From NCBI RefSeq assembly GCF_007115095.1, contig NZ_SULH01000003.1:62001-126000 (forward strand): a stretch of DNA of 64,000 bases. Reading direction: 5' to 3'. The DNA is from Levilactobacillus enshiensis. GTDB taxonomy: Bacteria; Bacillota; Bacilli; Lactobacillales; Lactobacillaceae. This document shows positions 3,000 through 44,168 of this stretch, piece after piece. The translations under genes were made by a program, and so were the position numbers. The first letter of the stretch is position 1. Every line of letters starts with the position of its first letter. The notes under the pieces were generated by a model that saw only the letters and a list, made by a program, of their open reading frames with translations, did no database searches and was not told where the DNA came from.

Positions 3000-3155
3000 G
3001 AGTCAAATTTGGACCCAGCCGTGGGATTTTTCAAGCGCTTTGCCTTGAAAAATGGCGTCTTTGAGACAGTGCTTTTCTGGCTCAAAGCGAGGTCAAAGAC
3101 CGCTCCTCAGGCTTTGACCGTCCTCCCCACCGCGTTCCGGTCCAAATTTGGCGAA
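3000..3155 (+). repeat. Four-stem structured element, copy G (type II)
   Basis: The closing stem is CAAATTTGGACC (3004-3015) with GGTCCAAATTTG (3139-3150), 12 bp and perfect. Inside are three hairpins: ATTTTTCAAG (3026-3035) with CTTGAAAAAT (3044-3053), CTTTGAG (3059-3065) with CTCAAAG (3081-3087), and GGTCAAAG (3091-3098) with CTTTGACC (3112-3119). The loop of the last hairpin and the CCCCACCG linker resemble copy F at 44.0 kb. The sequence stems differ from the type I copies but the order and arrangement of helices are the same. It lies between a glucosidase gene and a convergent phosphoribosyltransferase gene. Strand is assigned by comparison with other copies. Confidence 0.6.
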
Positions 3156-3199
3156 CGGTAAGGCGGCTCTTCCACAATGTTGCATTTTTTAAGTTAATC

Positions 3200-3254
3200 A
3201 AAAATCACCTGCACCGTCACGACTGAGAGCGTGAGCTGCAGGTGATTTTTGTGA
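3200..3254. terminator. Bidirectional intrinsic terminator
   Basis: AAAAATCACCTGCA (3200-3213) pairs with TGCAGGTGATTTTT (3237-3250), with A and T runs on the two sides. It lies between convergent genes. Nothing else was recognised from here to 3395. Confidence 0.75.
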
Positions 3255-3395
3255 TAGCGACGACCGCCTTCAAATGGGTGATGTATAGTCAGACCATTTC
3301 AACGTGGCGTTCGCCGCCTCACTAGTTGTAGTCTACCTTTTAGCGGGGCAGTGCGCCCCTAAATTCACTGAAAATGTTAAGTCATTTACCAACTG

Positions 3396-3941
3396 CTACA
3401 GCGGAAATAACGGCAGTTCTGCTAAATAGTCAATGTCGGTGCGTTTGACCGCATCGCCTTCCGCCAAGATGGCCAGCCGCCCGACCACCGTAGCACCTGC
3501 TTGACTCACCAGTTCTTCGGCCGCACTTAATGATCCCCCGCTGCTGATAACATCGTCGACAATGACGACGCGTTTAGCAACGAGTTTATCAGCATCCGCA
3601 CCATCCAGTGCGAGAATCTGCGGCGCACTGGTCGTGATGGCCTTGACTGGCACCGTCAACGGCGCACGCATGTAATCCTTAACACTCTTACGCAACACGA
3701 CGTATTCTTGATGTCCCGTCAGTCGGCTCAGTTCCTGCGCGAGGGGGATGCCCTTACTCTCCAGCGTCACGAAATAATCGAACGTTGCCGGCACCTTTTT
3801 CGCTAATGCCTCGGCCGCATAATCGGTCAATTCGGCATCTCCCAGCAACACGAACGAAGCAATTGCCATGGTATCGCTGATTGGCATCACCGGCAACCGC
3901 CGTGTAAGCGGCCCAACTTGTAATTCATACGTTTTGATCAT
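3396..3941 (-). CDS. Purine-type phosphoribosyltransferase
   Basis: This is a type I phosphoribosyltransferase of 181 aa. The PRPP-binding motif VVIVDDVISSGGS is at residues 125-137, and the N-terminal half has the hood region typical of adenine/xanthine-type enzymes. It would join a purine base to PRPP to give the nucleotide. The ATG at 3941 lies only 3 nt after the stop of the upstream permease gene and has only a G-rich stretch as ribosome binding site, so translation is probably coupled. The partner is an NCS2-like permease, and a PurR-like double box lies in front of both, which supports purine salvage. Which base is used cannot be read from the sequence. Xanthine or adenine are the likeliest. 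Confidence 0.75.
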   Translation of the reverse strand: MIKTYELQVGPLTRRLPVMPISDTMAIASFVLLGDAELTDYAAEALAKKVPATFDYFVTLESKGIPLAQELSRLTGHQEYVVLRKSVKDYMRAPLTVPVKAITTSAPQILALDGADADKLVAKRVVIVDDVISSGGSLSAAEELVSQAGATVVGRLAILAEGDAVKRTDIDYLAELPLFPL

Positions 3942-3944
3942 GGT

Positions 3945-5021
3945 TTAAACCCCCAGTCCCAAAAGTGGCAGCACAAATTTCAACACAGCACCGGTCATCA
4001 GGCCGGCAAACGGATCGGCCACGGCCGTCACCACCAACGTGATTGCTGCTACCGTTGCGCCAGACCCCTGCATGGCCGTGGCGGCGTTTTCCGGAAAAAT
4101 CACAGCCGTTCCCAGAATAAACAGGAACCCCGCAATGGACGCACTCGGAACGTATTTTCCTAACTTTGGTAACCACCCGATGGCTAAAATGGCGGCCATG
4201 ATCAACATCATCATGATGCCGGCCACAACGGGTTCCGGGGCACTAGCCGTTGCAGAAATAATGGCTTCCACTGGGGCCCCACCCAACAGGCTCGTCCCCA
4301 TGTCGGCGATGGATTGCGTGATGGTCAACAGGTTCAGGTTGACCGGGTTGGGCTTGATGCCCGTCATTTGCCCGGTGATCAGCCCATATGAAATGTTAGC
4401 GCCAATGTTCAAGCAGGCCAGACTCAACGCTCCCCGCACGACCCGCACGCTGAGCATCGGTTTGGTAAAGACGAACCGCCGCGCCGTCACGTGTTCTGGA
4501 AGTTCTGCGCGATAGTGTTCGATGAAGACGGCTGCTAGACTGGACCCCACCACGGAGATCACGATGGTCCACACCAGGTCCTTTGTGATCAAGTAGGTCG
4601 CCGTAGCGAGTGCGACCGACAGCCAGCCTGTCAATCGTTCCTGCTTCGCCATCCCCAATGCGATCTTGGCCAGCATAATCCCGACCCCGGCCATCATGCC
4701 GGCCATAATATTATTACCCAGGATGTCGACGATCTTGGTCAGCGTCCCGGTGACCCCAATCAGCAGCATGATGACGGAGCCACCTAGAATAATCGAAGTC
4801 CGTTCCCGCAAGTTACGACCAAGATTCCCGGTCAGTGCTAGTGATTCCGCCTGAAACGAGAGCGGTGCGACCGCACCAAAGGCCCCGTTGACCGCGGAAG
4901 CAAAAATGAACGAAAACATCGTTGGAAAAATAGCAAACCCTAGCGCCATCGCCATGATCCCTTGTGGAATCCCGTTTAAGACGACCCCAATGGCGGCTAG
5001 TAAGTCGGCCAACCAATGCAT
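3945..5021 (-). CDS. NCS2-like purine/xanthine permease
   Basis: This is a very hydrophobic 358-aa protein with about ten likely membrane segments. The motif NGAFGAVAPLSFQAESLALTG resembles the substrate-binding signature region of nucleobase permeases, and the Gly/Pro-rich segment near residues 270-310 fits the same fold. It is shorter than most NCS2 carriers (about 430 aa), so the subfamily is uncertain. GGGAGGAA lies 9 nt before ATG 5021. It is followed after 3 nt by the phosphoribosyltransferase gene, giving an uptake-plus-capture pair. The upstream region holds two facing CGAA-core boxes like those bound by PurR, suggesting control by purine supply through PRPP. Confidence 0.65.
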   Translation of the reverse strand: MHWLADLLAAIGVVLNGIPQGIMAMALGFAIFPTMFSFIFASAVNGAFGAVAPLSFQAESLALTGNLGRNLRERTSIILGGSVIMLLIGVTGTLTKIVDILGNNIMAGMMAGVGIMLAKIALGMAKQERLTGWLSVALATATYLITKDLVWTIVISVVGSSLAAVFIEHYRAELPEHVTARRFVFTKPMLSVRVVRGALSLACLNIGANISYGLITGQMTGIKPNPVNLNLLTITQSIADMGTSLLGGAPVEAIISATASAPEPVVAGIMMMLIMAAILAIGWLPKLGKYVPSASIAGFLFILGTAVIFPENAATAMQGSGATVAAITLVVTAVADPFAGLMTGAVLKFVLPLLGLGV

Positions 5022-5142
5022 AGTAAGTTCCTCCCTGTATCGTAGTTAGATGCTTAACTTTACTGTCGGTTCTATCATTGATAATTCGTATTTCTATTTC
5101 ATAATACGAGAACCAGACGCTTAAGTCCATCTATTTTTAATT

Positions 5143-5186
5143 TTTAACGAACATTCCATATTATTTTCTTTATTAAATTCGGTTAT
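5143..5186. promoter_or_regulatory. Putative PurBox pair upstream of the permease operon
   Basis: TTTAACGAACATT (5143-5155, plus strand) and ATAACCGAATTTA (5174-5186, minus strand) each match most of the AWWWCCGAACWWT PurBox. They face each other across 18 bp, close to the 16-17 bp known for Bacillus PurR operators. The 185-bp leader holds no purine riboswitch that I can recognise. Confidence 0.45.
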
Positions 5187-5199
5187 TATTTAACCAAAC

Positions 5200-5231
5200 A
5201 AAAAGTGTGACTTGGATTTACCCGGTCACAC
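5200..5231 (-). terminator. Intrinsic terminator
   Basis: Read on the minus strand, GTGTGAC and GTCACAC form a hairpin followed by TTTTTG. It lies directly downstream of the 5253-5921 gene. Confidence 0.65.
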
Positions 5232-5252
5232 AACCATTTATCATTCAAGTGA

Positions 5253-5921
5253 TTAGCGGAGCAGATGATTCTCCAACGCGGCGACCCGGACCAACGACCA
5301 CGCCGCTGGCAACTGGATGGCCAAAAGATTTCCGCAGGTCAACGCGTACACGTCCTGTGCCAACCGACCGGCGTGCGGATTACAGTGGTCCGGCGTATAG
5401 GTGTCCCAGACGGTGTGCTGGTCCAAAAGGTGCGTGAACAAGCGCTGTAACAATGCCTTTCCCGCTGGCAAAAAAAGCTGGTGCTCCGTCAACTGAGCTT
5501 GCAACAGCCAACACTGGGCCTGACTGGCCACCCCCTGGACCTTATCAGCCGTTACCGGGACGCCTTTGAGTCGTAGAACGGCCAGTGCAACCAAGTTGGC
5601 GGCTGTAGTGATCACATTGATGTGACTGGCTTGCGCGAGGTCGATCGCCAAGTACCAATCGGCTAACAACTCCTGTGAGGCTTGGGGAATCAGCGTCGCT
5701 ACTTGGTCAAACAGCCGACCGTACACCGAATTTTCCAGCTGTGGCATCAGCTCTTCCAGCGTGCGTTGCGGGACAATTTTCATCAAATCATTTTCCTCAT
5801 CTAAAAGTAGGAGGTCGACACCCCCAGCGGCCAGCGCGTGAACAGCGGCGCTTGGCGCAGTCGACCATGGCAGTAACGGGACAAAATCCGCCCCAGCTAG
5901 CTGCACGTTGAACTGTTTCAC
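5253..5921 (-). CDS. Hypothetical protein, 222 aa
   Basis: I do not recognise a family. The protein is soluble-looking and mostly helical, rich in Leu, Ala and Gln, with no signal peptide or clear membrane segment. The N-terminus has a predicted strand-rich stretch (VDLLLLDEEND), and the rest looks like an all-helical domain (LLADWYLAIDLAQASHINV). The start is GTG at 5921 with a strong AAGGGGGGAG box 7 nt upstream. It is monocistronic, with its own terminator at 5200-5231, and divergent from the MerR gene at 6090, from which it is separated by about 170 bp. The divergent layout makes it a possible MerR target, but nothing in the sequence says what it does. Confidence 0.65.
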   Translation of the reverse strand: MKQFNVQLAGADFVPLLPWSTAPSAAVHALAAGGVDLLLLDEENDLMKIVPQRTLEELMPQLENSVYGRLFDQVATLIPQASQELLADWYLAIDLAQASHINVITTAANLVALAVLRLKGVPVTADKVQGVASQAQCWLLQAQLTEHQLFLPAGKALLQRLFTHLLDQHTVWDTYTPDHCNPHAGRLAQDVYALTCGNLLAIQLPAAWSLVRVAALENHLLR

Positions 5922-6007
5922 GTTGACTCCCCCCTTAAGTATCCTGAGTGTACCCCCTTCGACCCACTTGAAGGCAACCCATTTGCCCCATTTTAAGTGA
6001 AAATTCT

Positions 6008-6036
6008 TGCGTCACTTACAAGAATCACGTATCATA
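6008..6036 (+). promoter_or_regulatory. Promoter of the MerR-family gene
   Basis: TTGCGT (6008-6013) and TATCAT (6031-6036) have a 17-bp spacer. A short dyad, GTTAG (6054-6058) with CTAAC (6066-6070), lies in the leader and could be a regulator site. Confidence 0.5.
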
Positions 6037-6089
6037 AAGCCATTACATTAGAGTTAGTCGAACGCTAACCCATCGAGGAGGAAGCCTAA

Positions 6090-6515
6090 ATGTCCTATAC
6101 CATTCATGAAGTTGCTCAGAAGATGGGCATTTCCACCTATACCATTCGTTACTATCACGACCACGGCATGTTGCCTTTCGTGAAACGTGATGAAAACAAT
6201 AACCGGATTTTCGACGACAATGACCTCGAGTGGCTGAACATCATCGTGTGCCTGCGTGCGACCGGGATGCCCGTTGAACGCATCCACCACTACTTAGACT
6301 TGGTTCAGGAGGGGGAATGCACCGTTCCCGAACGCTACGAAATGATGAAGACCCAGCAGGAACGGACGCTGAGTGAAATCACGGCATTGAACAAGCACTT
6401 GGCGACCATCAACTTTAAGGTCGACCACTACGCGGATATTATTGCCAATCACAAACCGGATAACTTCGTCCCCAGCAACCTGCGCAACGCGTCTACTGCC
6501 GACAGGACGGCTTAA
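6090..6515 (+). CDS. MerR-family transcriptional regulator
   Basis: This 141-aa protein begins with a winged helix-turn-helix of the MerR type (YTIHEVAQKMGISTYTIRYY at residues 3-22), continues with the second recognition element (NNRIFDDNDLEWLNII) and ends in a coiled-coil dimerisation helix at about 85-120. It has no cysteine-rich metal-binding C-terminus. This fits the small MerR regulators found next to oxidoreductase or efflux genes in lactobacilli. GAGGAGGAAG lies before ATG 6090. Its own terminator follows, and the next gene downstream is an MFS efflux-like protein with a separate promoter. The target is unknown. Confidence 0.85.
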   Translation: MSYTIHEVAQKMGISTYTIRYYHDHGMLPFVKRDENNNRIFDDNDLEWLNIIVCLRATGMPVERIHHYLDLVQEGECTVPERYEMMKTQQERTLSEITALNKHLATINFKVDHYADIIANHKPDNFVPSNLRNASTADRTA

Positions 6516-6601
6516 CGCCCTCATGTCGTCTGCGGCGGCTAGAAATTTCGGCACCTGTCTCTTGTGCCCAGCCGCCTTCAAATTCTTAGCCTTAAACATG
6601 C

Positions 6602-6635
6602 AACGATCGTGCACTACTTGCGCGATCGTTTTTGT
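6602..6635 (+). terminator. Intrinsic terminator after merR
   Basis: AACGATCG (6602-6609) pairs with CGATCGTT (6623-6630), followed by TTTTG. Confidence 0.7.
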
Positions 6636-6730
6636 GTGTCTTCCGTCTCTGACTTTCAGCCAAGATTTCCACGATTTGTATTCGTTTTCATCCCCGTCAC
6701 CACGCCTTTTAAATTCACAAGCAATTTCTC

Positions 6731-6759
6731 TTGTCCCCCCTTTACTAATATGCTAATAT
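6731..6759 (+). promoter_or_regulatory. Promoter of the MFS gene
   Basis: TTGTCC (6731-6736) and TAATAT (6754-6759) are separated by 17 bp, about 50 bp before the TTG start at 6809. Confidence 0.55.
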
Positions 6760-6808
6760 TATGAGCCTATGACCTACTTACCCACATTTTAAAAAGGGGG
6801 GTTGACCC

Positions 6809-8086
6809 TTGGAAGCTTCACACATGCCGCATTGGCGGCGTAATATTTACCTCTTCTTGACCAGTCAATTCTTATCTGGAATTACCAGTATGGTCGTCCA
6901 GTACGCTATTATTTGGTATCTGACTAAGCAGACTGGCTCAGCAACCGTTTTGAGTCTCGCAACATTGCTGGGAATGTTACCAATGGTGCTGTTGAGTCCG
7001 TTCGTGGGGCCCTTCGTTGATCGTTGGAACAAGAAGGGCCTGCTGATTGTGCCCGATGTGATTGCGGCCATCTTTGCCATTATTCTTTCCGTTGTGGGCA
7101 CGCTCCAAGCAACCTTCCCCCTCTGGCTGATCTTTATTTCGCTGCTCGTGCGGTCCATCGCACAGACCTTCCAGATGCCAACGATTCAGTCGATCTTGCC
7201 GACCATGGTACCGGCGGATCAGTTGACGCAGATCAACGGTCAGTTAGGCATGGTTCAGTCGGCCAACATGATCATTTCACCGGCGTTGGGGGCGTTTCTC
7301 TTTGCGATTGTCCCGATGAACTATCTGATCCTCGTCGACGTATTAGGCGCCATCATTGGCATCAGCCTGCTGACGTTTGTGACGATTCCGGAACACCCAG
7401 TAATCGACGAGAAAGTCCACGTGCTCGCTGATGCTAAATTTGGGCTGAATAAACTACGGCACACACAGGGCCTCTGGGCCATCACCATGATTGGTGCGGC
7501 CTTCACACTGATGTTCATGCCCGCTGCCAGCCTCTACCCGCTGATGACTATGGGCTACTTCCACGGTACCGTGGGTCAAGCCGGCCTGATTGAAGTCATC
7601 TACTCCGTCGGCATGCTCGGCGGTGGCGCCATTATTGGCCTCTTTGGGAACTGGCGTGACCGGATGAAACCCATCTTCTGGGCGACCCTGGCCATGGGGG
7701 TGACCTTTGGCGGCAGCGGCTTTCTGCCAGGAAATCAAACCGGCTTCATCTGGTTTGTCGTCCTTAACGCGCTGGCTGGTGCCGTGACGCCGTTCTACAG
7801 TACCCTCTTAATGGCGATGATCCAGCAGAGTTTTCCACCCGAACAGTTGGGCCGCGTCTTGGGCGTGCTGAACTCACTGACCAGTGTGGCCGGCCCCGTC
7901 GGCTTGATCTTTGCCGGGCCCCTTGCGGATGCTATCGGCGTGGAAAAATTGTTCATCATCGGCGGTATCGGTTCTTTGCTCTGTGGCCTCGCCATGTGGT
8001 TGATGCCGAGTGCTCGCGGGTACGACCAACAACTACAAGCCCGTTTGACGGCCGATTCGGTACCCTCTGAAATTGAACCAGATTAA
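6809..8086 (+). CDS. MFS transporter, macrolide-efflux (DHA3/Mef)-like
   Basis: This is a 425-aa protein with about 12 membrane segments. It has the features of the DHA3 subgroup: an N-terminal segment WRRNIYLFLTSQFLSGITS, the loop PFVGPFVDRWNKKGLL after helix 2, and long hydrophobic helices without a central cytoplasmic domain. Members expel macrolides or other lipophilic compounds in exchange for protons. The start is TTG at 6809, chosen because AAGGGGGG lies 7 nt upstream. An ATG at 6824 has no such site. It has its own promoter and terminator. The MerR gene just upstream might control it, but this is only positional. The substrate cannot be told from the sequence. Confidence 0.75.
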   Translation: MEASHMPHWRRNIYLFLTSQFLSGITSMVVQYAIIWYLTKQTGSATVLSLATLLGMLPMVLLSPFVGPFVDRWNKKGLLIVPDVIAAIFAIILSVVGTLQATFPLWLIFISLLVRSIAQTFQMPTIQSILPTMVPADQLTQINGQLGMVQSANMIISPALGAFLFAIVPMNYLILVDVLGAIIGISLLTFVTIPEHPVIDEKVHVLADAKFGLNKLRHTQGLWAITMIGAAFTLMFMPAASLYPLMTMGYFHGTVGQAGLIEVIYSVGMLGGGAIIGLFGNWRDRMKPIFWATLAMGVTFGGSGFLPGNQTGFIWFVVLNALAGAVTPFYSTLLMAMIQQSFPPEQLGRVLGVLNSLTSVAGPVGLIFAGPLADAIGVEKLFIIGGIGSLLCGLAMWLMPSARGYDQQLQARLTADSVPSEIEPD

Positions 8087-8097
8087 CTTTACCAAAC

Positions 8098-8148
8098 GCA
8101 AAAAAATACCGGGACAGTCTGAAAATCAGATTGTTCCGGTATTTTTTA
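8098..8148. terminator. Bidirectional intrinsic terminator
   Basis: AAAAAATACCGG with CCGGTATTTTTT, interrupted by small bulges, lies between the convergent MFS and flavin oxidoreductase genes. Confidence 0.8.
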
Positions 8149-8226
8149 GGTGTTCAACCAACATCATCATGGCAGTTTAGTCAGTCCCCTGACGTTGCGA
8201 CCCCGCCATACATTCAGTGGTGTTGC

Positions 8227-9782: not shown

Positions 9783-9869
9783 CCTTAGTTTAGATTTTGT
9801 AATTCAAACTACCGGTCATACCCATTCTAATAACAGGGGAACGAAAACTAGGCAACATGGCGATTAGGT

Positions 9870-10245
9870 CGCCTTACCGGCCGGCAGATATGGGCTGGAT
9901 CGGTGCGAACGCGCCTGAGCCCATATCTGCCGACCTCTCGGCTTACATTGTGGTTTCAGACGACACTAAGATTAACTATAATTGTCGTGATCAAGTGGAC
10001 CGAAAAACGTTAAGTAATCGTCCCTTACATCCGTTGTCGTGATAACACACAGTCAGCGCCGGAGGAGGCCAGGGATGGAGCCGGCCGTGAAGGTGAAGTT
10101 AGCTGGTGTTTCCAGCCAGCTTACTTCACGGGCGACTTTGGAGACACGTGGTCTTCGTGGCTTCAAAGCGAGCGATAAGACTGGCGCTCTTCCAGGCTGA
10201 AGCGTCCCCACAGCAGGCAGAATCCCTGGCAGCCGGAGTGCACTC
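9870..10245 (+). repeat. Four-stem structured element, copy A (type I, with 5' arm)
   Basis: The 3' core (10053-10241) is closed by GCCAGGGAT (10068-10076) with ATCCCTGGC (10222-10230). Inside are a hairpin with GTTAGCTGG and CCAGCTTAC arms, a CTTTG/CAAAG hairpin, and a third around GACTGG and CCAGGC. The 5' arm is a perfect 15-bp hairpin, CGGCAGATATGGGCT (9882-9896) with AGCCCATATCTGCCG (9918-9932). A conserved AT-richer linker joins the two parts. Copies B, C and D share this arrangement. It fills the gap between two minus-strand regulator genes. No protein is encoded: the open frames on both strands are not conserved between copies. Confidence 0.8.
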
Positions 10246-10316
10246 AAGTTAACCTAACTTAATGGCGCGAGTGCGGATTACTACTGAGATAAGGACTGAA
10301 TTTCATCTTTCAATCA

Positions 10317-21626: not shown

Positions 21627-21669
21627 TTCGTACATACAACTAAGGGATGCAAGGTGAACTTCAAGATTC

Positions 21670-22133
21670 GTGCCGTTCAACTGGGCGCACTCCGGCTGCC
21701 AGGGATTCCGCCTGCTGTGGGGACGCTTCAGCCTGGAAGAACACCAGTCTTCTCGCTCGCTTTGAAGCCACGAAAACCACGTGTCTCCAAAGTCGCCCGT
21801 GCTGTAAGCTGGCTGAAAAAACGCCAGCTAACACCACTTTCACGGCCGGCTCCATCCCTGACCTCCTCCGGCGCTGACGGTGTTTTATCACGACAACAGT
21901 TGTCGGTCACGGATACCTGACATTTTCGGTCCAATTGATAACGATGAGCTGGCTGGAAACACCATTTAAGGGGAAGAGGACAGCAGATATGGGGCCAGAT
22001 ACATCATTCTACTTAGTCAGCAAGTACACTAATTATTGGCTTAGTAGAAAAGCAAGCTTGTCGGGCTCGTGACTTGCGCGACTTTAAGTTGTATTCGCAT
22101 CAATTCCGCCCCTATCTGCCGACCGGTAAGGCG
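21670..22133 (-). repeat. Four-stem structured element, copy B (type I, with 5' arm and insert)
   Basis: On the minus strand the copy starts at 22133 with the 5' arm (CGCCTTACCGG then a GCAGATAGGGGC-type hairpin). The core (21880-21680) is closed by arms at 21854-21862 and 21698-21706, with one mismatch. The hairpin loop of the 5' arm (about 21995-22110) contains an extra conserved segment with TTCTACTAAGCC and CTAAGTAGAA arms. The same insert is in copy C but absent in A and D. It lies between two plus-strand genes, opposite in direction to both. Confidence 0.75.
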
Positions 22134-22264
22134 ACTCAGCCATCGCGTTGCCTCGCTTTAATCTCAAGTTTATGTTTAGAATAGATATGATTGGTGTTTT
22201 GGTAGGTTCACCCTTTAGTAAATCAATCCATCACATCTTAATTTTCAAGAAGGGACTCACTCTT

Positions 22265-23909: not shown

Positions 23910-23966
23910 CAGCTTGGACCGTCCTGCCCATCGCGTTTCAGTCCAAATTTGGCGAACGGTAAGGTA
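23910..23966 (+). repeat. Truncated 3' remnant of the four-stem element (type II, copy H)
   Basis: About 55 bp match the 3' third of copy G, including CCGTCCT, GTCCAAATTTGGCGAACGG and TAAGG, with a few differences. The 5' stem arm and inner hairpins are missing, so the copy is a fragment. Confidence 0.55.
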
Positions 23967-28246: not shown

Positions 28247-28333
28247 TTTAATGCAATTTAATTATTGTGACTGAAGGTTGAAAACGGCCATCCCTGTTCT
28301 AACAATAATACTGGGCAACCTAGTGGTCCCTTT

Positions 28334-28812
28334 CGCCTTACCGGCCGGCAGATATGGGCTGGACCGGTGCGAACACAACTTGAAGCCTCGAAAGAGCCGA
28401 GTCTACAAGCTTGGTTTTCTACTAAGCCAGTAAGAAAATCACTTACTGACTAAGTAGAACGACGCGCCTGAGCCCATATCCGCCGACCTCTCGGCTTACA
28501 TTGTTGTTCGCAGACAACACTGAAAATAACTGTAATCATCATTATCAAGTGAACCGAAAAATGTTAGATAACTGCAACTTACAGCCGTTGTCTTGATAAA
28601 ACACCGTCAGCGCCGGAGGAGGCCAGGGATGGAGCCAGCCGTGAAAGTGAAGTTAGTTGGTGTTTCTCAGCCAGCTTACTTCACGGGCGCCTTTGGAGAC
28701 ACGTGGTTTTCGTCGCTTCAAAGCGAGCGAGAAGACTGGTGGTCTTCCAGTCTAAAGCGTCCCCACAGCAGGCGGAATCCCTGGCCGCCGCAGTGCGCCT
28801 AATTTAACGGTA
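28334..28812 (+). repeat. Four-stem structured element, copy C (type I, with 5' arm and insert)
   Basis: The 5' arm is CGGCAGATATGGGCT (28346-28360) with AGCCCATATCCGCCG (28471-28485, one mismatch). Its loop carries the same roughly 90-nt insert as copy B, with TTCTACTAAGCCAGTAAG and CTTACTGACTAAGTAGAA arms. The core (28609-28798) is closed by GCCAGGGAT (28622-28630) with ATCCCTGGC (28777-28785). It lies between the DUF6440 operon and the 3' end of the sugar porter gene, antisense to both. Confidence 0.8.
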
Positions 28813-28836
28813 CAACTAATCGACGACAACAGTGCC

Positions 28837-32869: not shown

Positions 32870-32871
32870 CG

Positions 32872-32919: not shown

Positions 32920-33012
32920 ATCAATTATTAGTTTTTTAAGTTTCCAAGCATCGACCATGCCTGTTCCAGCAACAACACTGGGACTAAAATTGGACAACCT
33001 GGTGGTCCCTTT

Positions 33013-33410
33013 CGCCTTACCGGCCGGCAGATATGGGCTGGATCGGTGCGACGCGCCTGAGCCCATATCTGCCGACCTCCCGGCTTACATCGTATTCTCG
33101 GACGACACTGAGAATAATTATAACTGTCGCTATCATTTATCGCCCAAAGTATTAGGTAGCTGTGATTTACAGCTGTTATCGTGATAAAAGCCAACCAGCG
33201 CCGGAGGAGGCCAGGGATGGAGCCGGCCGTGAAGGTGAAGTTAGCTGGTGTTTCTCAGCCAGCTTACTTCACGGGCGACTTTGGAGACACGCGGTCTTCG
33301 TGGCTTCAAAGCGAGCGAGAAGACTGGTGTTCTTCCAGTCTGAAGCGTCCCCACAGCAGGTGGAATCCCTGGCAGCCGCAGTGCGCCCAATTTAGCCTAA
33401 TTTAATGGCA
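33013..33410 (+). repeat. Four-stem structured element, copy D (type I, with 5' arm)
   Basis: The 5' arm CGGCAGATATGGGCT / AGCCCATATCTGCCG is intact and lacks the insert of copies B and C. The core (33197-33386) is closed by GCCAGGGAT (33210-33218) with ATCCCTGGC (33365-33373). The inner hairpins are near identical to copies A and C, including AGACTGG with CCAGTCT. It lies between the tetR operon and the 3' end of an MFS gene, antisense to both. Confidence 0.8.
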
Positions 33411-33540
33411 CGGATGCTTCCCAATACTAGGATGAGATTCGAATTTCATTTTCAGTTGGTTTAAGCTTTGTCAGGTATACTGACGAAATACTCTATGGTA
33501 GAAACGCGCCTGAGCCGGACCATTTTGAACAAGTCACCTT

Positions 33541-37471: not shown

Positions 37472-37512
37472 GGTTTTACTAGCGCTCCCCCTTTTTCACA
37501 GCGCACACCATT

Positions 37513-37556
37513 AAAAAGTCATCAATGACCCGAATTTGGTCGTTGATGACTTTTTT
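37513..37556. terminator. Bidirectional intrinsic terminator
   Basis: AAAAAGTCATCAATGACC pairs with GGTCGTTGATGACTTTTT between the yhcH operon and the convergent mazEF remnant. Confidence 0.85.
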
Positions 37557-37632
37557 CGTGCGTTGGCATAGGACCAGTGTCCGCAGATTGGCCGCTACCG
37601 GTTGCCAGGGACGCCACTTGCTATTGAAGAGC

Positions 37633-37973: not shown

Positions 37974-37998
37974 ATATATGTCATTATTTTACTTCTCT

Positions 37999-38202
37999 TC
38001 AATTAACGTCAGGCCACTCCTCAGTCATGGACCTTGAATCTTTTTTTGAGGCGTATGGATTTTCCATTTTGGGGACTAACGTGAAGGATTCACCGTCCGT
38101 GGCAGGAATTAGTAGCCAACGTTGGCCTTTCTTAAAACGATCATCCTTTGGCAAACTCAGCGCTAAAGAGTTACCACGACTTACTGTTTTTACTTCCATC
38201 AT
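37999..38202 (-). CDS. mazE: MazE-like (AbrB-type) antitoxin
   Basis: This 67-aa protein has an N-terminal swapped-hairpin DNA-binding domain (VKTVSRGNSLALSLPKDDRFKKG) and an acidic, flexible C-terminus (SKKDSRSMTEEWPDVN) that would bind the toxin, as in MazE antitoxins. AAGGAGG lies 9 nt before ATG 38202. The toxin gene follows directly downstream on the same strand but is frameshifted. The antitoxin looks intact and could still repress its own promoter. Confidence 0.75.
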   Translation of the reverse strand: MMEVKTVSRGNSLALSLPKDDRFKKGQRWLLIPATDGESFTLVPKMENPYASKKDSRSMTEEWPDVN

Positions 38203-38243
38203 GATAAAGTTCCTCCTTGTTAGTCACTAGAATAGACTGACAC

Positions 38244-38528
38244 TTATTTCGTATTGAATCGTGATGACCTTTTACTCTTATATCTATTTCTGAGTATAAG
38301 AATAAAATCAACTGGTATATTAACAATCAAGATCCAAATCAGCGTGTATAAATCCCACCCGAATAGCGGTACATTAATCATAATCGTCACAAGTAAGAAA
38401 GCCACCAGCTCAAGCACTGGTTCATTAAACCACTTTCGATGACTGCCTGCCCTTTTTAAAAGACGGGGTCTTACCAGAAAGATCATAACGGATAGTAGTA
38501 ATAACAAGCCAATTGTCTTTAACCACAT
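38244..38528 (-). CDS. Small membrane protein, 94 aa
   Basis: The protein has three hydrophobic stretches (residues about 4-20, 40-56 and 61-78) and a basic C-terminus, suggesting a small inner-membrane protein. I do not recognise a family. It lies 42 bp upstream of mazE on the same strand, but no strong ribosome binding site is visible before ATG 38528 (only a GGGGGC stretch), and composition is AT-rich like the surrounding accessory DNA. It could belong to the mazEF module or be an unrelated small gene. Confidence 0.5.
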   Translation of the reverse strand: MWLKTIGLLLLLSVMIFLVRPRLLKRAGSHRKWFNEPVLELVAFLLVTIMINVPLFGWDLYTLIWILIVNIPVDFILILRNRYKSKRSSRFNTK

Positions 38529-39019
38529 TATTTTTGCCCCCTTACAAACATCATTAGATCAATTACAATTATTTTCTTGACTGGTCTTGATTAATGATAT
38601 TCTCAGTATTCACAATTATCGTACTACTCAATTTTTTACAGCACTACTTACTGAGTACTGAACTTCTAACAGTTTCTGCATGTGCCCGAGGAGTTACAAC
38701 CTTTCCTAGCATGGTAAAAACCGACATAACTTGACCTTAACAATAACCTTTTTTCAACAGATTACAATGCAATATACGGTGTAAATAATATCGGTAGCAT
38801 TTTATAATTTGAGACTTATAGCCCTTAAACCATTTTTTATGTTTCAAGATTCGGCGGACACCAACATGTTCAAACTGAGATTATACTATCGCTCTTTTTG
38901 CTATTCTGTTGCAGCTATTATTTACCTTCAAAGGAACGGGATTGCTCTCAAAAAATGCATTTCAACGCTCAAAAGCCACTGCTTAAAAGTTGCCGAAAAT
39001 TATTTGGATAAAAGTATAA
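38529..39019. other. AT-rich stretch without recognised genes
   Basis: No coding region with a credible ribosome binding site, no operator and no repeat was found in this 490-bp region. A 75-codon open frame at 38809-39036 runs through the following terminator and is rejected. Confidence 0.5.
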
Positions 39020-39068
39020 CGAAAAATGGTTCCTAGAAATCATGAACTGATCTCTAGGAACCATTTTC
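39020..39068. terminator. Bidirectional intrinsic terminator
   Basis: AAAATGGTTCCTAGA pairs with TCTAGGAACCATTTT. It ends the araD gene on the minus strand. Confidence 0.8.
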
Positions 39069-39104
39069 AATTACTGGAGCTCAAAATAAGTTCACACGTT
39101 AACT

Positions 39105-39836
39105 CTATTCGCGCGCCGCATGATCCTTAGACTTCGCGTTGTTTTGGCCGTAATAAGCGTTAGCCCCGTGCTTGCGCAGGTAATGCTTGTCCAGCAAGTA
39201 TTGTGGCAATTCGCGGTTAGCCCGGGTCAATTGGGCCGTGTGGTAGTCTTCTTCAGCGACAACTTCGAGCACCTTGGCGTTGTAAACGGCCTTGTCAGGG
39301 GTTGGGCCCCAAGCGAAGGGACCATGTTGACTCACCAGAGCGGCAGGAACGGCTTCGTAGTCGATGCCCCGTTCGTTAAACGTCTTGACGATGGTCTTCC
39401 CCGTGTTACCTTCGTAGTCCTCTTCGATTTCCTCTTTGGTCAAAGCATCTGCGGCGGGTACATCCCCGTAGAACGTATCTGCATGCGTCGTGTTCATGGC
39501 CGGAATGTCCATCTTAGCTGCGGCAAAAGAAACAGCCCAAGGTGAGTGGGTGTGCACGATTCCCCCGATATTTGGAAAATGGTTGTACAGGTACGTGTGG
39601 GTTGGCGTATCGCTTGACGGGTTCATGTCGCCTTCAACGACCTTACCGTCCTTCACGTTCACAACGACCATGTCTTCTGGCTTTAAGTCGTTGTAGTCGA
39701 CACCAGAAGGTTTGATGACGTACAAGCCCTTCTCCCGGTCGATACCGGAGACGTTGCCCCAAGTGAATGAGACCAGACCGAGTTGTGGTAAGCGCATGTT
39801 AGCGTCGTAGACTTCTTGTTTGAGTTTTTCAAGCAT
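39105..39836 (-). CDS. araD: L-ribulose-5-phosphate 4-epimerase
   Basis: This 243-aa class II aldolase-like protein interconverts L-ribulose 5-phosphate and D-xylulose 5-phosphate. The metal-binding His pair is in VHTHSPWAVSF, with a third His in VSQHGPFAWG. The substrate-phosphate loops GNVSGID and KPSGVDY are conserved, and HADTFYGDVP is typical of the AraD/UlaF/SgbE group. ATG 39836 has AAGGAGC 8 nt upstream, and a longer N-terminal frame has no such site. It lies about 460 bp after the 3-epimerase gene on the same strand, with element E in between. It would be the last step of the pathway, feeding the pentose-phosphate or phosphoketolase route. Confidence 0.9.
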   Translation of the reverse strand: MLEKLKQEVYDANMRLPQLGLVSFTWGNVSGIDREKGLYVIKPSGVDYNDLKPEDMVVVNVKDGKVVEGDMNPSSDTPTHTYLYNHFPNIGGIVHTHSPWAVSFAAAKMDIPAMNTTHADTFYGDVPAADALTKEEIEEDYEGNTGKTIVKTFNERGIDYEAVPAALVSQHGPFAWGPTPDKAVYNAKVLEVVAEEDYHTAQLTRANRELPQYLLDKHYLRKHGANAYYGQNNAKSKDHAARE

Positions 39837-40047
39837 AGGTTGTTCGCTCCTTATTTTCTGTGTCTTGCTGGCGGTCGCTATGACCGGCAGAGATAGGTGT
39901 ATTTTAGTCAAACTGGGTTGCGCTAGAAATCAGTTTATTCGTTGTTGATTTTCCAGCTGAAATCAACATGGGTAGAGACCGTGTGGCGACGAACAATTCC
40001 ACATCTGATAACCTGTGATATCCACGCTTGTCATGGCAGAGATCAAT

Positions 40048-40242
40048 CAGAGCCGGAGGAGGCCAGGGATGGAGCCAGCCGTGAAAATGGTGTTAACTGG
40101 CGCTTTTCCAGCCAGTTTACAGCATGGGCGACTTTGAAGACACACAGGTTTCGTGGGGCTTCAAATCGAGTCGGAGGACCGCTTCACAGTCCGGAGCGTC
40201 CCCACAGCAGGCGGAATCCCTGGCAGCCGCAGTGCGGTCATT
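40048..40242 (+). repeat. Four-stem structured element, copy E (core only, diverged)
   Basis: Only the core is present, closed by GCCAGGGAT (40062-40070) with ATCCCTGGC (40216-40224). Stem bases differ from the other type I copies in a paired way: AACTGG with CCAGTT instead of AGCTGG with CCAGCT, and GGACCG with AGTCC instead of GACTGG with CCAGTC. Its third loop (GACCGCTTC) resembles the type II copies. It lies inside the operon between the 3-epimerase and araD genes, on the opposite strand to them. Confidence 0.75.
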
Positions 40243-40299
40243 CAGCAGTAAGTGTACCGGTTAACGTCGACACACTGACCCCATTATTTTTCTGCGAAA

Positions 40300-41178
40300 C
40301 TAGTCGGCGATAGCTTCTTGTTCAATACCGACTTTGGCGAAGAGGTCGTCGAAGAACTGCTTGGCCTTCTTGATCTCACCCACGGGATCAGCCGTGGTCC
40401 CCGTCCACATTTCAACGGTGTAGCTCCCAGAATAATCTAGCCGGGCCAACATCCGCAGGCAGCCCTCGAAGTCCACGCAGCCTTCGCCGAAGGGAACTTC
40501 CTTGAACTTACCTTTAAACGTTGGGGTCACAGCTAGCGTGTCCTTCAAATGGATAGCCGCAACGTCTTCCAAGTTATTCTCCAAGTCCTCAGCCACATTA
40601 TTTTCTGGCCAAGCGCTGATGTTGCCCAAGTCAGGGTAGCCTTGCAGGAAGGGACTCTTGATCATGGTCTTGTAGTGCGCGATTTTGGTCAGGGAGTTGA
40701 TGAACGGGTCATCCATGGTTTCAATGGACAACGTGACCAGCTTCTTCGCGGCCATTTCAACACACTTGCGCAAGTTTTCCACGAAGTATTCGCGGCTTTC
40801 GACCGTCTTCTTTTCGTAGTAAACATCGTAGCCGGCTAACTGGATGTTCTTGATTCCCAAGTCAACGGCGAGGTCGATGGCCTTTTGCATGATCTCCAAG
40901 GACTTGGCACGGATTGCCGGGTCCGCAGAGCCCAGTGGGAAACGCCGGTGACCGGACAACATCATGGTGTTGATGCGGCTGTTGGTTGCCCACATCGCGT
41001 TTCTGAAGTCGGCCCGCTGTTCGCGCGTCCAGTCCAGTCGAGCTAACCGTTCGTCACTTTCATCGATAGAGAATTCCAAAAAGTTAAAGCCCAATTCATG
41101 AACTAAGTTAAACTTCTCTTTCCAAGTTAAATCTTGGGGTAATGCTTTTTCGTAAATGCCTAATGCGTTAACTGTCAC
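40300..41178 (-). CDS. ulaE: L-ribulose-5-phosphate 3-epimerase (UlaE/SgbU-type)
   Basis: This 292-aa TIM-barrel protein converts L-xylulose 5-phosphate to L-ribulose 5-phosphate. The family motifs are NALGIYEKALP, LGFNFLEFSIDESDERLARLDW, LGIKNIQLAGYDVYYE, LSIETMDDPFI, AIHLKDTL and VPFGEG near the end. The Glu and His metal ligands lie in these strands. The start is GTG at 41178, 7 nt after AAGGAG. It overlaps the stop of the kinase gene by 4 nt (GTGA). In E. coli the same step order (kinase, 3-epimerase, 4-epimerase) is found in the ula and yia-sgb systems. Confidence 0.85.
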   Translation of the reverse strand: MTVNALGIYEKALPQDLTWKEKFNLVHELGFNFLEFSIDESDERLARLDWTREQRADFRNAMWATNSRINTMMLSGHRRFPLGSADPAIRAKSLEIMQKAIDLAVDLGIKNIQLAGYDVYYEKKTVESREYFVENLRKCVEMAAKKLVTLSIETMDDPFINSLTKIAHYKTMIKSPFLQGYPDLGNISAWPENNVAEDLENNLEDVAAIHLKDTLAVTPTFKGKFKEVPFGEGCVDFEGCLRMLARLDYSGSYTVEMWTGTTADPVGEIKKAKQFFDDLFAKVGIEQEAIAD

Positions 41179-42707
41179 TGTTCTGCTCCTTCTTGAAATG
41201 CTTTGAGACTGCTCCAACTGCCGTCCAACGCCGTCAATAGTGAGACGTAGGCGGTATACTTTTGGTCGTAAATTTTCACTTGGTCGGCACGAGGTTCATA
41301 GCGCGCCTTGACGTGTGACATCTTCGCCGCAGCGTCTTCTAAGCTCGCATACCGGCCACTGCCGACTGCCGAGGTGATGGCGCCACCCAGACCACCAAGT
41401 TCGTTGGATGCGACCAACTCGATTGGCAGGTTCAGGATATCCGCAAACATTTGCACCCAGCTTGGAGAATTCGTGCCCCCACCGGACATGCGGACGACTT
41501 GCGGCTGGTGACCCAGCACCTTCAATAGCGATTGCACGTGGTACCGGTGGGCAAAGGCAATGCCTTCGTAGACCGCGCGGACCATTTCGGACTTCGTGGT
41601 ATTGCTCCGCAGGCCGATAAAGGAACCGGTCGCTTCGGGGTCGGAATTGCTCCCATAGAGGAACGGGAAGTAGATCAGCTTGGCAAAGGTCGCGTCCGTG
41701 TTCTGCAGGAACACTTCGAGGTCGTCATAGATCGACTTTCCCTGTGCCTTGGCGTCGCGGGTCTCGGCAGTCATCAACATCTTGATAATGATGGCCAGGT
41801 TCCCCGCGGAGGTCGGACTTGACGCTTCGATCAGCTTCTTGCCGGTCGGAAAAATCGAGTTCATCAGCCCGCTGTCTTCTGGGGCCATCGTGTCATTGGG
41901 GAAGATGTTCATGTTCCAGGTGCCGGCAATCAGACTGAACTTATCGTTGTCCAAAACGCCGGTCGCAATGGCGCAGGCATCAATGTCGAACATCCCACCG
42001 AAGACGGGGGTACCCGCCTTGATCCCGGTCATCTTTTCGGCTGCCGGTGACACGACCCCGCATTGATCCGTGGCGTGGACCAGTTTTGGCATCTTATCAA
42101 ACATTTCCGGAATCCCGAAGAAGTCGAAGAGTCGCTGGTCATAAGTCTCCGTGTCCAAATTAACAAAGTTATTGCCGGACGCATCGCCAATTTCTTGGTA
42201 AACGTCGCCCGTCATCAGGAACCGAATGAAGTCCTTGTTGGACAACACCGCCCCAATCTGTGCGTAGTGTTCCGGCTCGTGTTCTTTCAGCCACCGTAAG
42301 ATAACCGGGGCTTGGCTAGGCATCACGTGTTGGTGGCTGATGGCATAGATATCGCTAACGCTACTTTCAAAGGTCGTCGCGAGTTTTTCGGCACGGCTGT
42401 CGGCCGATAGAATGCCATCCATGAAGATCTGCTGGTCGTGGTCCAGGACGTAGAGCCCTTTCCCGTGACCGACCGTCGAAATGCCGCTAATTTGGTCACC
42501 CGTTAAGTGGGCCTTGGCCAGCGCATCGTGTGCCGCTGCCCCCAGCGCCGTCCACAACTCAGCGAGGTTCGTTTCGTGAAATCCCGCCTTGCGTTCACGG
42601 TTCTTCGTGGGAAAAGCGGAGACTGCTAATTGGTCCCCCTGGTCGTTAAAGATGGCCACTTTGGTGTTGGTGCCACCGTTATCGATCGTTAAAAAGTAGC
42701 TTGCCAT
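41175..42707 (-). CDS. lyxK: FGGY-family carbohydrate kinase, probably L-xylulokinase
   Basis: This 510-aa sugar kinase has the ATPase fold of the FGGY family: the phosphate loop DNGGTNTK at the N-terminus, STVGHGKGLYVLD, MFDIDACAIATG, and the second phosphate motif RMSGGGTNSPSWVQMFADIL. Because it is followed by a 3-epimerase and a 4-epimerase of L-ribulose 5-phosphate, L-xylulose is the best substrate guess. L-ribulose or another ketopentose is possible. ATG 42707 is the start, 11 nt after AAGGAG. Upstream lies the propeller-like protein gene of the same operon, 19 nt away. Confidence 0.85.
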   Translation of the reverse strand: MASYFLTIDNGGTNTKVAIFNDQGDQLAVSAFPTKNRERKAGFHETNLAELWTALGAAAHDALAKAHLTGDQISGISTVGHGKGLYVLDHDQQIFMDGILSADSRAEKLATTFESSVSDIYAISHQHVMPSQAPVILRWLKEHEPEHYAQIGAVLSNKDFIRFLMTGDVYQEIGDASGNNFVNLDTETYDQRLFDFFGIPEMFDKMPKLVHATDQCGVVSPAAEKMTGIKAGTPVFGGMFDIDACAIATGVLDNDKFSLIAGTWNMNIFPNDTMAPEDSGLMNSIFPTGKKLIEASSPTSAGNLAIIIKMLMTAETRDAKAQGKSIYDDLEVFLQNTDATFAKLIYFPFLYGSNSDPEATGSFIGLRSNTTKSEMVRAVYEGIAFAHRYHVQSLLKVLGHQPQVVRMSGGGTNSPSWVQMFADILNLPIELVASNELGGLGGAITSAVGSGRYASLEDAAAKMSHVKARYEPRADQVKIYDQKYTAYVSLLTALDGSWSSLKAFQEGAEQ

Positions 42708-42726
42708 GTTCAGCCACACTCCTTAT

Positions 42727-43728
42727 TTATAAACTAATTGCGTACACCGCGACCTGATTGGCTTCACGGTTGGCAGACAACAGGTAGGTTTGCCCGTTCT
42801 TGTTGTAAACGTTGACGTTGCTTGGTCCCATCTTTTCGTCGATCAACTGGGCGTCTAATTTGTCGCTGGTGATCAATTCGAGGTTTTGCTTGCCAGCACG
42901 CCAGCCGAAGATGAAGTAATCACGGTCGCCCAACTTGCCACCCCAGATAGCGTGGCCAAATGGCGTATCCGCTTCGCTGCGGGAAATCGTGTTGAAGTTG
43001 TGGTCGGAAATGCGGAGATATGGGCCGTGGAAGCCTTCAATGGTCAGGTATTCCTCTTCGCCATCTTGGTTGATGTCGGCACTAAAAATGTCGGACGTTT
43101 CAACGTCCGATAATTGCGTTAACTGCCAATCTTGATCAGCGGTTGGTGGCACGAGCTTGAAGATACCTTGTACACCGGTGATCAGGGAGTAACCGTCCAT
43201 GCGCTTGTAGCCGTGGTTCTTGGTCAAACGGAAATCCAGGGCGTGGAGGTCATCGACCGTTTCGGTAGCATCGTTGTATTCGCCGACCCAAACTTTACCA
43301 GGATCAGTCCAATCGTCCGTGTCCTTCTTGGAGTTTGCGATGGAACAACCCACGTACCAGTAACCGGAACCATCGTACTTAGGGAGGATGTCAAACCGGT
43401 GGACGTAAGGGAAATCGCCCACGATAGTTTGATCCCAGTCGGTGCCGTTAAAGGTTTCCTTCACGATCCGGCAAGCGGCGGAGTTAAAGCCTGGGTAAAA
43501 CCGTTGGGTGGCTAAGAAGTTCAACGTGCCAGGAATTTGGACCATGGTCATGGTGCCCCCAACGTCAGGCCAAACCGTTGTCCGGGCAAAGTCGTTGTTC
43601 AAGTCGTACGCGTAGCAAGGCTTCTTCTCTTCGGAAGCCACAACGATATAGTCTTTATCGTCATGTTGTAGTCGCATGATTGCGTAGCAGTGATCTAATT
43701 CATCTTTAAAAACCTTATCGAATTTCAC
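42727..43728 (-). CDS. Unknown protein, probable beta-propeller, 333 aa
   Basis: I do not recognise the family. The sequence shows repeated strands with aromatic-Asp turns (DYIVVASEEKKP, FLATQRFYPGF, YWYVGCSIANSK, EEYLTIEGFHGPYLRISD, DYFIFGWRAGKQ, TYLLSANREANQVAVYA), which suggests a cytoplasmic six- or seven-bladed propeller. There is no signal peptide. Metal- or calcium-binding type Asp-rich loops (SADINQDGEEEY) are visible. It is the first gene of the operon with L-xylulokinase and the 3-epimerase, right after an LacI-type operator. It may be an aldonolactonase, dehydratase or epimerase acting before the kinase. Coupling to a sugar-acid pathway is inferred from context only. Confidence 0.6.
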   Translation of the reverse strand: MKFDKVFKDELDHCYAIMRLQHDDKDYIVVASEEKKPCYAYDLNNDFARTTVWPDVGGTMTMVQIPGTLNFLATQRFYPGFNSAACRIVKETFNGTDWDQTIVGDFPYVHRFDILPKYDGSGYWYVGCSIANSKKDTDDWTDPGKVWVGEYNDATETVDDLHALDFRLTKNHGYKRMDGYSLITGVQGIFKLVPPTADQDWQLTQLSDVETSDIFSADINQDGEEEYLTIEGFHGPYLRISDHNFNTISRSEADTPFGHAIWGGKLGDRDYFIFGWRAGKQNLELITSDKLDAQLIDEKMGPSNVNVYNKNGQTYLLSANREANQVAVYAISL

Positions 43729-43759
43729 AGTTGTTCCTCCATTTGTTTTTTCTCTTGTA

Positions 43760-43773
43760 GTTAACCGGTTAAC
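43760..43773. promoter_or_regulatory. LacI-type operator before the kinase/epimerase operon
   Basis: GTTAACCGGTTAAC is a perfect 14-bp palindrome and fits the GTTAANCGNTTAAC motif found before the yhcH and dehydrogenase genes. It lies 32 bp before the ATG of the propeller gene, a blocking position. Confidence 0.6.
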
Positions 43774-43997
43774 AATAGTCGAGTCTTATCTTACGGTTTC
43801 TCATTTTAAATGTCAATTGGGGGTGGGAATAGCCGGTCACACGTAACTCACAATGGCCATCGACTGCCTGTCCCACCAAATTTAGCGGGCCAAAGTCGTG
43901 GCAATCAGTTTCTACCATAGAGACGTTGTAACCCAGGTAGCCGAACAACATTGCAGCTAAGCCTACCAATTCTTTCATTTTCAACGTACTCTCAGTC

Positions 43998-44168
43998 GAA
44001 GGCGGTCAGGGACGTAACCCCGTGTCGGTGTGCTTAGGTCGGCCGTTCTTGCCGGCCTTAGCACACGGGCCGAGCTTTGAGACTCGTAATTTGAGGCTCA
44101 AAGTCGCCCTGAAGACCGCTTCTCAGGCTTCAGGTCTGCCCCACCGGGTGGAGTCCCTGACCGCCGAA
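43998..44168 (+). repeat. Four-stem structured element, copy F (type II)
   Basis: The closing stem GGCGGTCAGGGAC (44001-44013) with GTCCCTGACCGCC (44153-44165) is 13 bp and perfect. Inside are a long hairpin with arms GTGTGCTTAGG and CCTTAGCACAC, a CTTTGAG/CTCAAAG hairpin, and a CCTGAAG/CTTCAGG hairpin with loop ACCGCTTCTCAGG. The order matches the type I copies although stem sequences differ. It lies between the terminator of the dehydrogenase gene and the promoter of the kinase operon. Confidence 0.75.

Follow-up and report, generated by a model that had tools for sequence, protein, structure and literature searches.

A dispersed family of structured intergenic elements in Levilactobacillus enshiensis: evidence for non-autonomous transposons whose modules may act as RNA

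Copies in the window and their fold

The stretch of DNA analysed here, hereafter the window, comprises 64,000 nucleotides of Levilactobacillus enshiensis (Lactobacillaceae; NCBI RefSeq assembly GCF_007115095.1, contig NZ_SULH01000003.1, positions 62,001 to 126,000 of the forward strand). It contains a dispersed family of structured intergenic elements that an earlier note had picked out at seven places and had described as possibly a small non-coding RNA family, a chromosome-organising repeat or a non-autonomous mobile element. The seven places do form one family: a covariance model (R1), trained on 14 aligned cores that all belong to a module type called Y, matched all of them and located eight cores in the window (Table 1). 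The five Y cores and the B-type core were matched at 144-191 bits, and two divergent cores of a second module type, called X, both outside the training set of R1, were matched at 56.8 bits (minus strand, 28341-28491; E 4e-12) and 49.6 bits (plus strand, 2995-3158; E 2e-10). Since R1 was built without X and still recognises it, X and Y appear to be homologous modules. The other five of the 13 R1 matches in the window comprise four at 21-29 bits, which are the antisense strands of places already matched, and one at 928-995 (11 bits, E 0.3) that was taken as chance.

Repeat finding gave matches of 108-300 nucleotides at 70-94% identity between the places, and long direct and inverted matches link the copies near 9.9, 21.7, 28.4, 33.1 and 40.1 kb. 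The genome as a whole holds at least 113 R1 matches at E<=0.1 among the best 150 of 738 candidates scored. The C-type X module of the window has 14 more near-full copies in this genome (173-215 bp matched, 87-96% identity), and the B-type core is without a close paralog there, its six other matches all being weak. At three further loci (L021, L024 and L057) copies look chimeric or nested, their A-type modules being directly adjoined by parts of other modules, C-type X among them.

Related genomes were compared, among them G002, G019 and G003, whose names were inferred as L. andaensis, L. koreensis and L. brevis CD0817, respectively. The Y core at 33203-33379 is found at the orthologous place in both L. 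andaensis and L. koreensis, the place of the 40055-40230 core is occupied in L. koreensis and lacks the copy in L. andaensis, and the divergent partner that the B-type core is missing here is present in both species.

Table 1. Members of the family in the window; core limits and module types are given with each feature.
Feature	Coordinates	Strand	Basis or remark
C-type X module, full core 2995-3158 (+), without partner, inverted repeats not recognised	2988..3167	+	R1
A-type element, X a palindrome 9869-9950, Y core 10061-10236 (+), ends degenerate	9789..10316, approximate limits	+	site empty in G002
A-type element, Y core 21692-21869 (-), X 21975-22135 (-)	21640..22218	-	R1 for Y core
Fragment, 3' arm of C-type X module	23912..23964	+	91% to 3111-3163
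A-type element, X core 28341-28491 (-), Y core 28615-28791 (+), right end truncated	28271..28836	+	
A-type element, X palindrome 33012-33091, Y core 33203-33379 (+)	32985..33440, approximate limits	+	
Y core 40055-40230 (+), X not recognised	40047..40242	+	R1
B-type core, divergent partner missing here (site 43826-43849)	43998..44168	+	R1, 144.4 bits

In the folded core the closing stem (P1) is followed by a symmetrical internal loop of 3 bases, a second stem (P2, GTG/CAC, which uses the CCCCAC linker), hairpin 1, a third stem (P3, GGG/CCC), hairpin 2 and an optional hairpin 3. Hairpin 1 carries a T.T mismatch and hairpin 2 an A.G mismatch, and the least variable letters over the fetched cores include GTG, TTAG...TTA around the T.T mismatch, AGAC...GGCT around the A.G mismatch, and CCCAC. 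The fold z-score was -8.2 for 43998-44167 and -4.9 for 33190-33392. The closing stem around three hairpins, which had been ascribed to every copy, does not hold for the X core at 28341-28491, which folds with two inner hairpins, nor for the palindromic X at 9869-9950 and 33012-33091. Several copies are composite, with a reversed core (X) on the 5' side and Y on the 3' side. By eye, the loops of the core look T-rich more than of the GNRA or UNCG kind, and hairpin 1 of the L. koreensis ortholog of the 33203 core (L122:3981-4158) seems to be a perfect inverted repeat that lacks the conserved T.T mismatch.

An intact A-type element measures about 0.6 kb and consists, in order, of a left inverted repeat CTAAAGGTTGAAAG, X as a minus-strand core, a spacer of typically about 120 bp, Y as a plus-strand core, and the right inverted repeat. 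In some copies X has shrunk to a palindrome through hairpin loss. Among 68 close core pairs in the fetched DNA (gap <=600 bp), 64 were divergent, 4 tandem and none convergent, a count from which identical pairs were dropped and in which orthologs were retained.

A protein-coding reading of the family was considered and rejected. A Shine-Dalgarno-like GGAGGAGG is present at 33203-33219 and in other A-type Y cores, which open with it, followed by six bases and an ATG whose frame runs through the core. This frame is apparently not kept, because, as judged by eye, the loops of some copies are one base longer or shorter than those of others, and the absence of a conserved protein, as claimed from the start, agrees with this.

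Terminal repeats, target duplications and a likely mobiliser

In the fetched DNA, facing inverted repeats 200-1700 bp apart with at most 4 mismatches in all were collected as pairs, elements of identical sequence being dropped and several pairs sharing an end. Duplications of 7-9 bp (at most 1 mismatch) flanked 24 of the 40 pairs, as compared with a mean of 1.3 and a maximum of 5 in 2000 shuffles. They were found in 20 of 29 pairs of 275-672 bp, in neither of the two of 981-1136 bp and in 4 of 9 of 1554-1680 bp; the first class is that of miniature inverted-repeat transposable elements (MITEs), so that most MITE-sized pairs combine terminal repeats with target duplications. In a first search of 1.9 Mb of fetched DNA, no pair with duplications exceeded 626 bp. 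With up to one mismatch allowed, the own genome contains the 14-bp repeat CTAAAGGTTGAAAG 66 times and a reversed control 3 times, and an exact search of seven relatives found 72 in L. koreensis and 15 in L. andaensis, the reversed control giving 0 in all seven.

The window's own copies have degenerate ends. For instance, the element at 21640..22218 shows inverted-repeat-like ends with 3 mismatches each and is without a target duplication. The one at 28271..28836 has a left repeat CTGAAGGTTGAAAA at 28271-28284 as read from the sequence. Movement is visible as presence and absence between species. Sites at 9.8-10.3 kb and 28.2-28.8 kb are filled here and empty elsewhere, the former in L. andaensis and the latter in both L. 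andaensis and L. koreensis, and two sites that are empty here (6516-6601 and 43826-43849) are filled in L. andaensis, the exact edges of all these sites being blurred by divergence. The copies are near certain to be non-autonomous transposons, that is MITEs of mostly about 0.6 kb.

An autonomous partner was found in L. koreensis. The insertion sequence at L341 is 1,559 bp long, has ends identical to the 14-bp MITE repeat, is flanked by the 8-bp duplication CTGATTAA and contains one open reading frame (ORF) of 450 amino acids. This protein is an IS4-family transposase (NF049925 at 470 bits; Pfam DDE_5 and DDE_Tnp_1). Copies of the insertion sequence measure 1554-1567 bp, with duplications CTGATTAA and ACAGTAAA of 8 bp and TATCTAA and TAAACTG of 7 bp, which fits the ISPepr1 subgroup in size and duplication; two copies with exact ends, L361 and L362, are without a duplication. 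The survey of the IS4 family gives for this subgroup a size of 1500-1600 bp, duplications of 7-8 bp, ends of the form YT-AA-YTT---A and a YREK motif (De Palmenaer et al. 2008, PMC2266710). The repeat CTAAAGGTTGAAAG matches 8 of the 9 conserved end positions listed there, with a G at position 7 (PMC2266710, Table 1). All conserved positions of that list are matched by CTGAAACTTGAAAG, the end of L366. The YREK motif was read by eye as YARRWQIEGYFKVAK in the 450-residue protein. The spacing of the motif is Y(2)R(3)E(6)K.

Relatives of the transposase at E<=1e-80 occur in 12 of 151 genomes of the family and were not found at that threshold in the own genome, so that the window copies are probably stranded. 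The same ends recur on several copies of the insertion sequence from other genera (g17, g34, g47). The core was found in none of the 21 loci that carry the transposase or one of its relatives, the two core matches of that search being a separate MITE in L355, and four intact MITEs have only 14-24 bp at their ends in common with the insertion sequence; the MITEs are therefore not simple internal deletions of it. The MITEs lack a transposase and share identical 14-bp ends with an autonomous element (L341), and an ISPepr1-type insertion sequence of the IS4 family is their likely mobiliser, in trans, as judged from these ends. It had been anticipated that an insertion-sequence family might turn out to cover the copies. 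Such a sequence was indeed found, yet as the likely mobiliser, sharing ends with the copies and not covering them. Of the three kinds of element initially proposed, it is for the non-autonomous mobile element that inverted repeats, target duplications and the presence of an autonomous partner speak, and the MITE identity together with this mobiliser is held with very high confidence.

Several matches of the repeat lie at contig ends, as expected if near-identical copies break assemblies: in four contigs of G091 the repeat is preceded by the same initial stretch, one contig starts with an L341-like end, and others start with MITE sequence. Draft contigs of G091, L. andaensis and L. koreensis (L342-L354) start inside elements ending in CTAAAGGTTGAAAG, and draft copy numbers are thus probably underestimated.

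By blastn, the A-type Y core was found in 20 of 24 genomes of the genus, the own genome included and one of the four negatives being 72% complete, in none of 16 genomes of other families, and, by blastn only, in none of 72,556 plasmid and 50,697 phage records. The covariance-model search that had been proposed for the whole genome and for Lactobacillaceae gave, besides the 113 or more matches above, R1 matches in 28 of the 151 genomes, and 8 of the 40 genera, that were sampled from Lactobacillaceae. An order-wide draw gave 3 of 118 genomes, all in Lactobacillaceae and the own genome among them; in both scans the best 18 or 23 candidates per genome were scored, and copy numbers are lower bounds. 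In another genus, g52, elements at L266 and L269 have the same inverted repeats with 7-bp duplications, and in genus g38 pairs are dense, with three or four per 15-20 kb.

Selection on the fold and on its strand

Covariation supports the fold strongly, so that the lack of it, which would have counted against the family, was not seen. In an alignment of 104 distinct cores from 58 sources, 46 of 47 pairs showed changes on both sides and 95.4% of pairs were standard, a value reached in 0 of 500 shuffles, and pairing dropped to 33-44% in controls with slid partners. This alignment was fitted to the model and so favours pairing; the independent evidence is a structure-blind MAFFT alignment, made of 54 A-type Y copies plus a reference, in which G.T outnumbered A.C by 166 to 13, and by 68 to 12 once the pairs that are most often in a non-Watson-Crick state had been left out. 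As G.T far outnumbers A.C, selection acts on the plus strand of Y and not on the duplex, and the tolerance of wobble pairs points to RNA rather than single-stranded DNA. The structured RNA-like option thus stands for the module as regards covariation and one-strand selection, its nature as RNA being a matter of inference.

The same asymmetry bears on the chromosome-organising option. A repeat acting as DNA, for example by forming a cruciform, would agree with the high copy number, the intergenic positions and the palindromic nature of the elements, and DNA folding gives nearly the same shape (z -7.8). A cruciform, however, needs both strands equally, and A.C would be expected to equal G.T, contrary to the counts above. 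Such a role is therefore disfavoured and we regard it as very improbable.

Variants among young copies suggest when selection took place. Among 123 Levilactobacillus Y copies (above 150 bits), variant types present in at least four copies were 13 G.T to 1 A.C, and rarer types were 15 to 29 (p=1e-4). This excess of A.C among recent variants may reflect strand-biased mutation in resident copies. X, read on its own strand in 92 copies (above 140 bits), showed a weaker trend, with 4 G.T, 1 A.C and 10 both-side types in at least four copies, 11 and 9 in two or three copies, and 13 and 13 among private variants. Selection thus acted on the spreading lineage, and many young copies are now drifting.

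Older, resident copies were compared between species. In 12 hand-chosen sets of orthologous cores, 77 of 1442 paired positions were variable (5.3%) as compared with 94 of 663 unpaired ones (14.2%; p=5e-11), and the variable pairs included 6 with both-side changes and 10 others besides the G.T and A.C types given below. At three loci of genus g38, compared over three or four species with gaps excluded and rates summed over non-independent species pairs, substitutions amounted to 3.5% in X, 6.9% in Y, 18.0% in spacers and 13.0 and 10.5% in the near flanks, with 5.0 and 4.3% at 200-500 bases out, where genes were not checked. At a fourth g38 locus three species share one and the same X sequence of 176 bases, and their spacer is 84-88% identical. 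Finally, the B core of the window is 89-92% identical between species and its left flank 59-65%. From these alignments, old copies appear to keep their fold under selection after the loss of mobility.

A possible role in read-through transcripts, known systems and meaning

The elements avoid gaps between divergent genes. In a 458-kb sample that includes the window and in which genes were called by a crude ORF script, 1 of 25 elements lay between divergent genes as compared with 81 of 341 intergenic gaps (p=0.02), and 11 of 25, one of them doubtful, lay between convergent genes as compared with 77 of 341 gaps; the convergent case at 33196 depends on a spurious ORF. The statement that most copies are antisense to their neighbours is true of the window and does not extend to a rule, as the sample gave 7 such cases and 6 co-directional ones.

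The best explanation of the whole is, with a probability of about 0.6, a MITE that carries a strand-selected module acting in read-through transcripts. An ISPepr1-type transposase of the IS4 family would recognise CTAAAGGTTGAAAG, move the MITEs in trans and duplicate 7-9 bp of target. One strand of the module is selected and would act as RNA inside the transcripts of neighbouring genes. As the cores lie back to back, each entering transcript would receive one sense fold: with copies pointing outward, read-through from either side would have a single fold in the right orientation close to its 3' end, and there the fold would determine the mRNA 3' end or its decay. Insertion downstream of a gene would thus be tolerable and sometimes useful, and old copies would be kept by selection after their repeats decay. 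That resident cores function as RNA seems to us slightly better than an even proposition, and a role in 3'-end formation or decay is more tentative, falling somewhat short of even.

Several observations weigh against this reading. As regards transcription, sigma-70-like promoters were not above chance in 39 non-redundant spacers (6 against 5.95 expected rightward, 7 against 6.1 leftward), and downstream T-runs showed no excess among 62 (13 to the right and 15 to the left, compared with 24 and 16, respectively, on the opposite strand). An apparent excess of leftward promoters (19 against 8) had disappeared once redundancy was removed. As regards mobility, inverted repeats were recognised on both sides in only 4 of 44 loci examined, two of which are the same place, and in none of 10 g38 loci, so that a mobiliser common to the g38 copies is an assumption. 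As regards resident copies, variable pairs in orthologs were 34 of the G.T type to 19 of the A.C type (p=0.053), which is suggestive only, and the ortholog structures come from predictions on these very alignments, a procedure that may favour conserved pairs; B shows no less conservation in its right flank (88-99%) than in its core, X of L135 is missing 34 bases, and in g38 set 6 conservation is no higher than in the flank. Private variants of the 123 Y copies were equally frequent in paired and unpaired columns (59 in 94 and 56 in 96), and most young copies therefore look unselected. Two cores of the g38 comparison, moreover, have paralogs in the same genome that are 88-91% identical over 145 nucleotides. 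The RNA step itself is drawn from pairing patterns and genomic position.

The promoter and T-run counts also bear on an alternative in which the element is a mobile pair of trans-acting small RNA genes, each module being transcribed outward from the spacer. The divergent arrangement of 64 of 68 close pairs, one-strand selection and covariation would all be accounted for, but neither spacer promoters nor T-runs exceed chance and more than 100 diverged cores per genome would be odd for a trans-acting RNA; we hold this for rather improbable. The same counts, together with the avoidance of gaps between divergent genes, lead us to place the action of the modules in read-through transcripts.

The private variants, for their part, agree with a selfish fold, in which the modules would serve only the propagation of the element, whether as hairpins of single-stranded DNA or as RNAs that help or control transposition, and the resident copies would be junk. 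Variants common to many young copies show selection on the fold and private ones do not, each fold is placed close to the 3' end of its strand, and the loops seem rich in T. On the contrary, orthologs without recognised inverted repeats keep their helices across species divergence, with some both-side changes, and the autonomous insertion sequence is without the core. This alternative is unlikely in our view, less so than the others.

Finally, conservation of resident cores might come from gene conversion between copies instead of selection. In favour of this are the g38 paralogs mentioned above, X of set 2 and Y of set 3 in one genome; moreover, 77 nucleotides of the fully conserved X of set 4 match another locus at 97% identity, and hairpin 1 differs patchily between orthologs of the 33203 core. 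Against it, conversion takes no account of pairing, whereas variation is lower at paired than at unpaired positions; other core matches within g38 genomes are mostly at 69-82%, and the genome that contains B has no close paralog of it. In view of the close paralogs, gene conversion may contribute to the conservation of the g38 cores, and as its sole source it is improbable.

No Rfam family accounted for the copies tested. Rfam gave no gathering match to those in the window and nothing credible at E<=5 for 33000-33450 or at E<=0.5 for four related loci, so that the family match that might have explained them was not found. Among the titles that searches of open PMC papers listed, none described the family, a long non-coding RNA of Lactobacillus salivarius (PMC5643018) not having been compared with it. 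The only Rfam gathering match within the window is a thiamine pyrophosphate (TPP) riboswitch (RF00059, 63.6 bits) at 48064-48160 on the minus strand. The window further contains a 35-bp unit repeated three times in tandem at 48360-48464 (89-100% identical to the first unit), as well as direct repeats of 215 nucleotides at 51836-52050 and 52408-52622 (72%) that overlap two adjoining ORFs of 176 amino acids each.

The family resembles several known systems. As for bcr1-bcr3 of the Bacillus cereus group, the published account states that about half of the copies are transcribed, often in untranslated regions, and that the presence of bcr3 correlates with mRNA decay (PMC3446304). The family described here is, in the same way, non-coding, high-copy, intergenic and MITE-like; as far as that account goes, it is set apart, without sequence comparison, by a known likely IS4 partner and by a duplicated back-to-back module with compensatory changes across genera. 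Its mobiliser agrees with the ISPepr1 subgroup (PMC2266710) in size, duplication length, CT ends and YREK motif, whereas the MITEs, unlike those insertion sequences, are without transposase and share 14-24 bp of ends. Repetitive extragenic palindromes and the mosaic elements that they form (REP/BIME) are also intergenic palindromic repeats and are discussed in relation to mRNA stabilisation and termination (PMC3733652). REPs are palindromes of 20-40 bp, whereas the present fold is multi-branched, measures 170 nucleotides, is usually paired and lies in an inverted-repeat transposon; no search for a linked RAYT (Y1) transposase was made. A structured nucleic-acid module within a mobile element is also what the bridge RNA of IS110 represents (PMC11208160); unlike IS110, mobility here is of the DDE type, with inverted repeats and duplications, two modules and an element without transposase. 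MITEs being of a known kind, the new part is a duplicated, divergent and covarying module that is seemingly kept under constraint after the loss of mobility.

In lactobacilli, a family of transposons is joined to its likely mobiliser and to a large covarying fold that found no Rfam match. The RNA reading can be tested locus by locus through species that have or lack a copy, for example at the empty sites of L. andaensis and L. koreensis. A wider and rather speculative possibility is that the modules constitute a transposon-spread class of structured regulatory RNA, seeded many times per genome across Lactobacillaceae, repeatedly domesticated and shared at the 3' ends of many genes, perhaps with a protein partner that reads the T.T and A.G mismatches. 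If the resident copies do act as RNA, the family would provide a replicated case of mobile DNA spreading one regulatory structure genome-wide.

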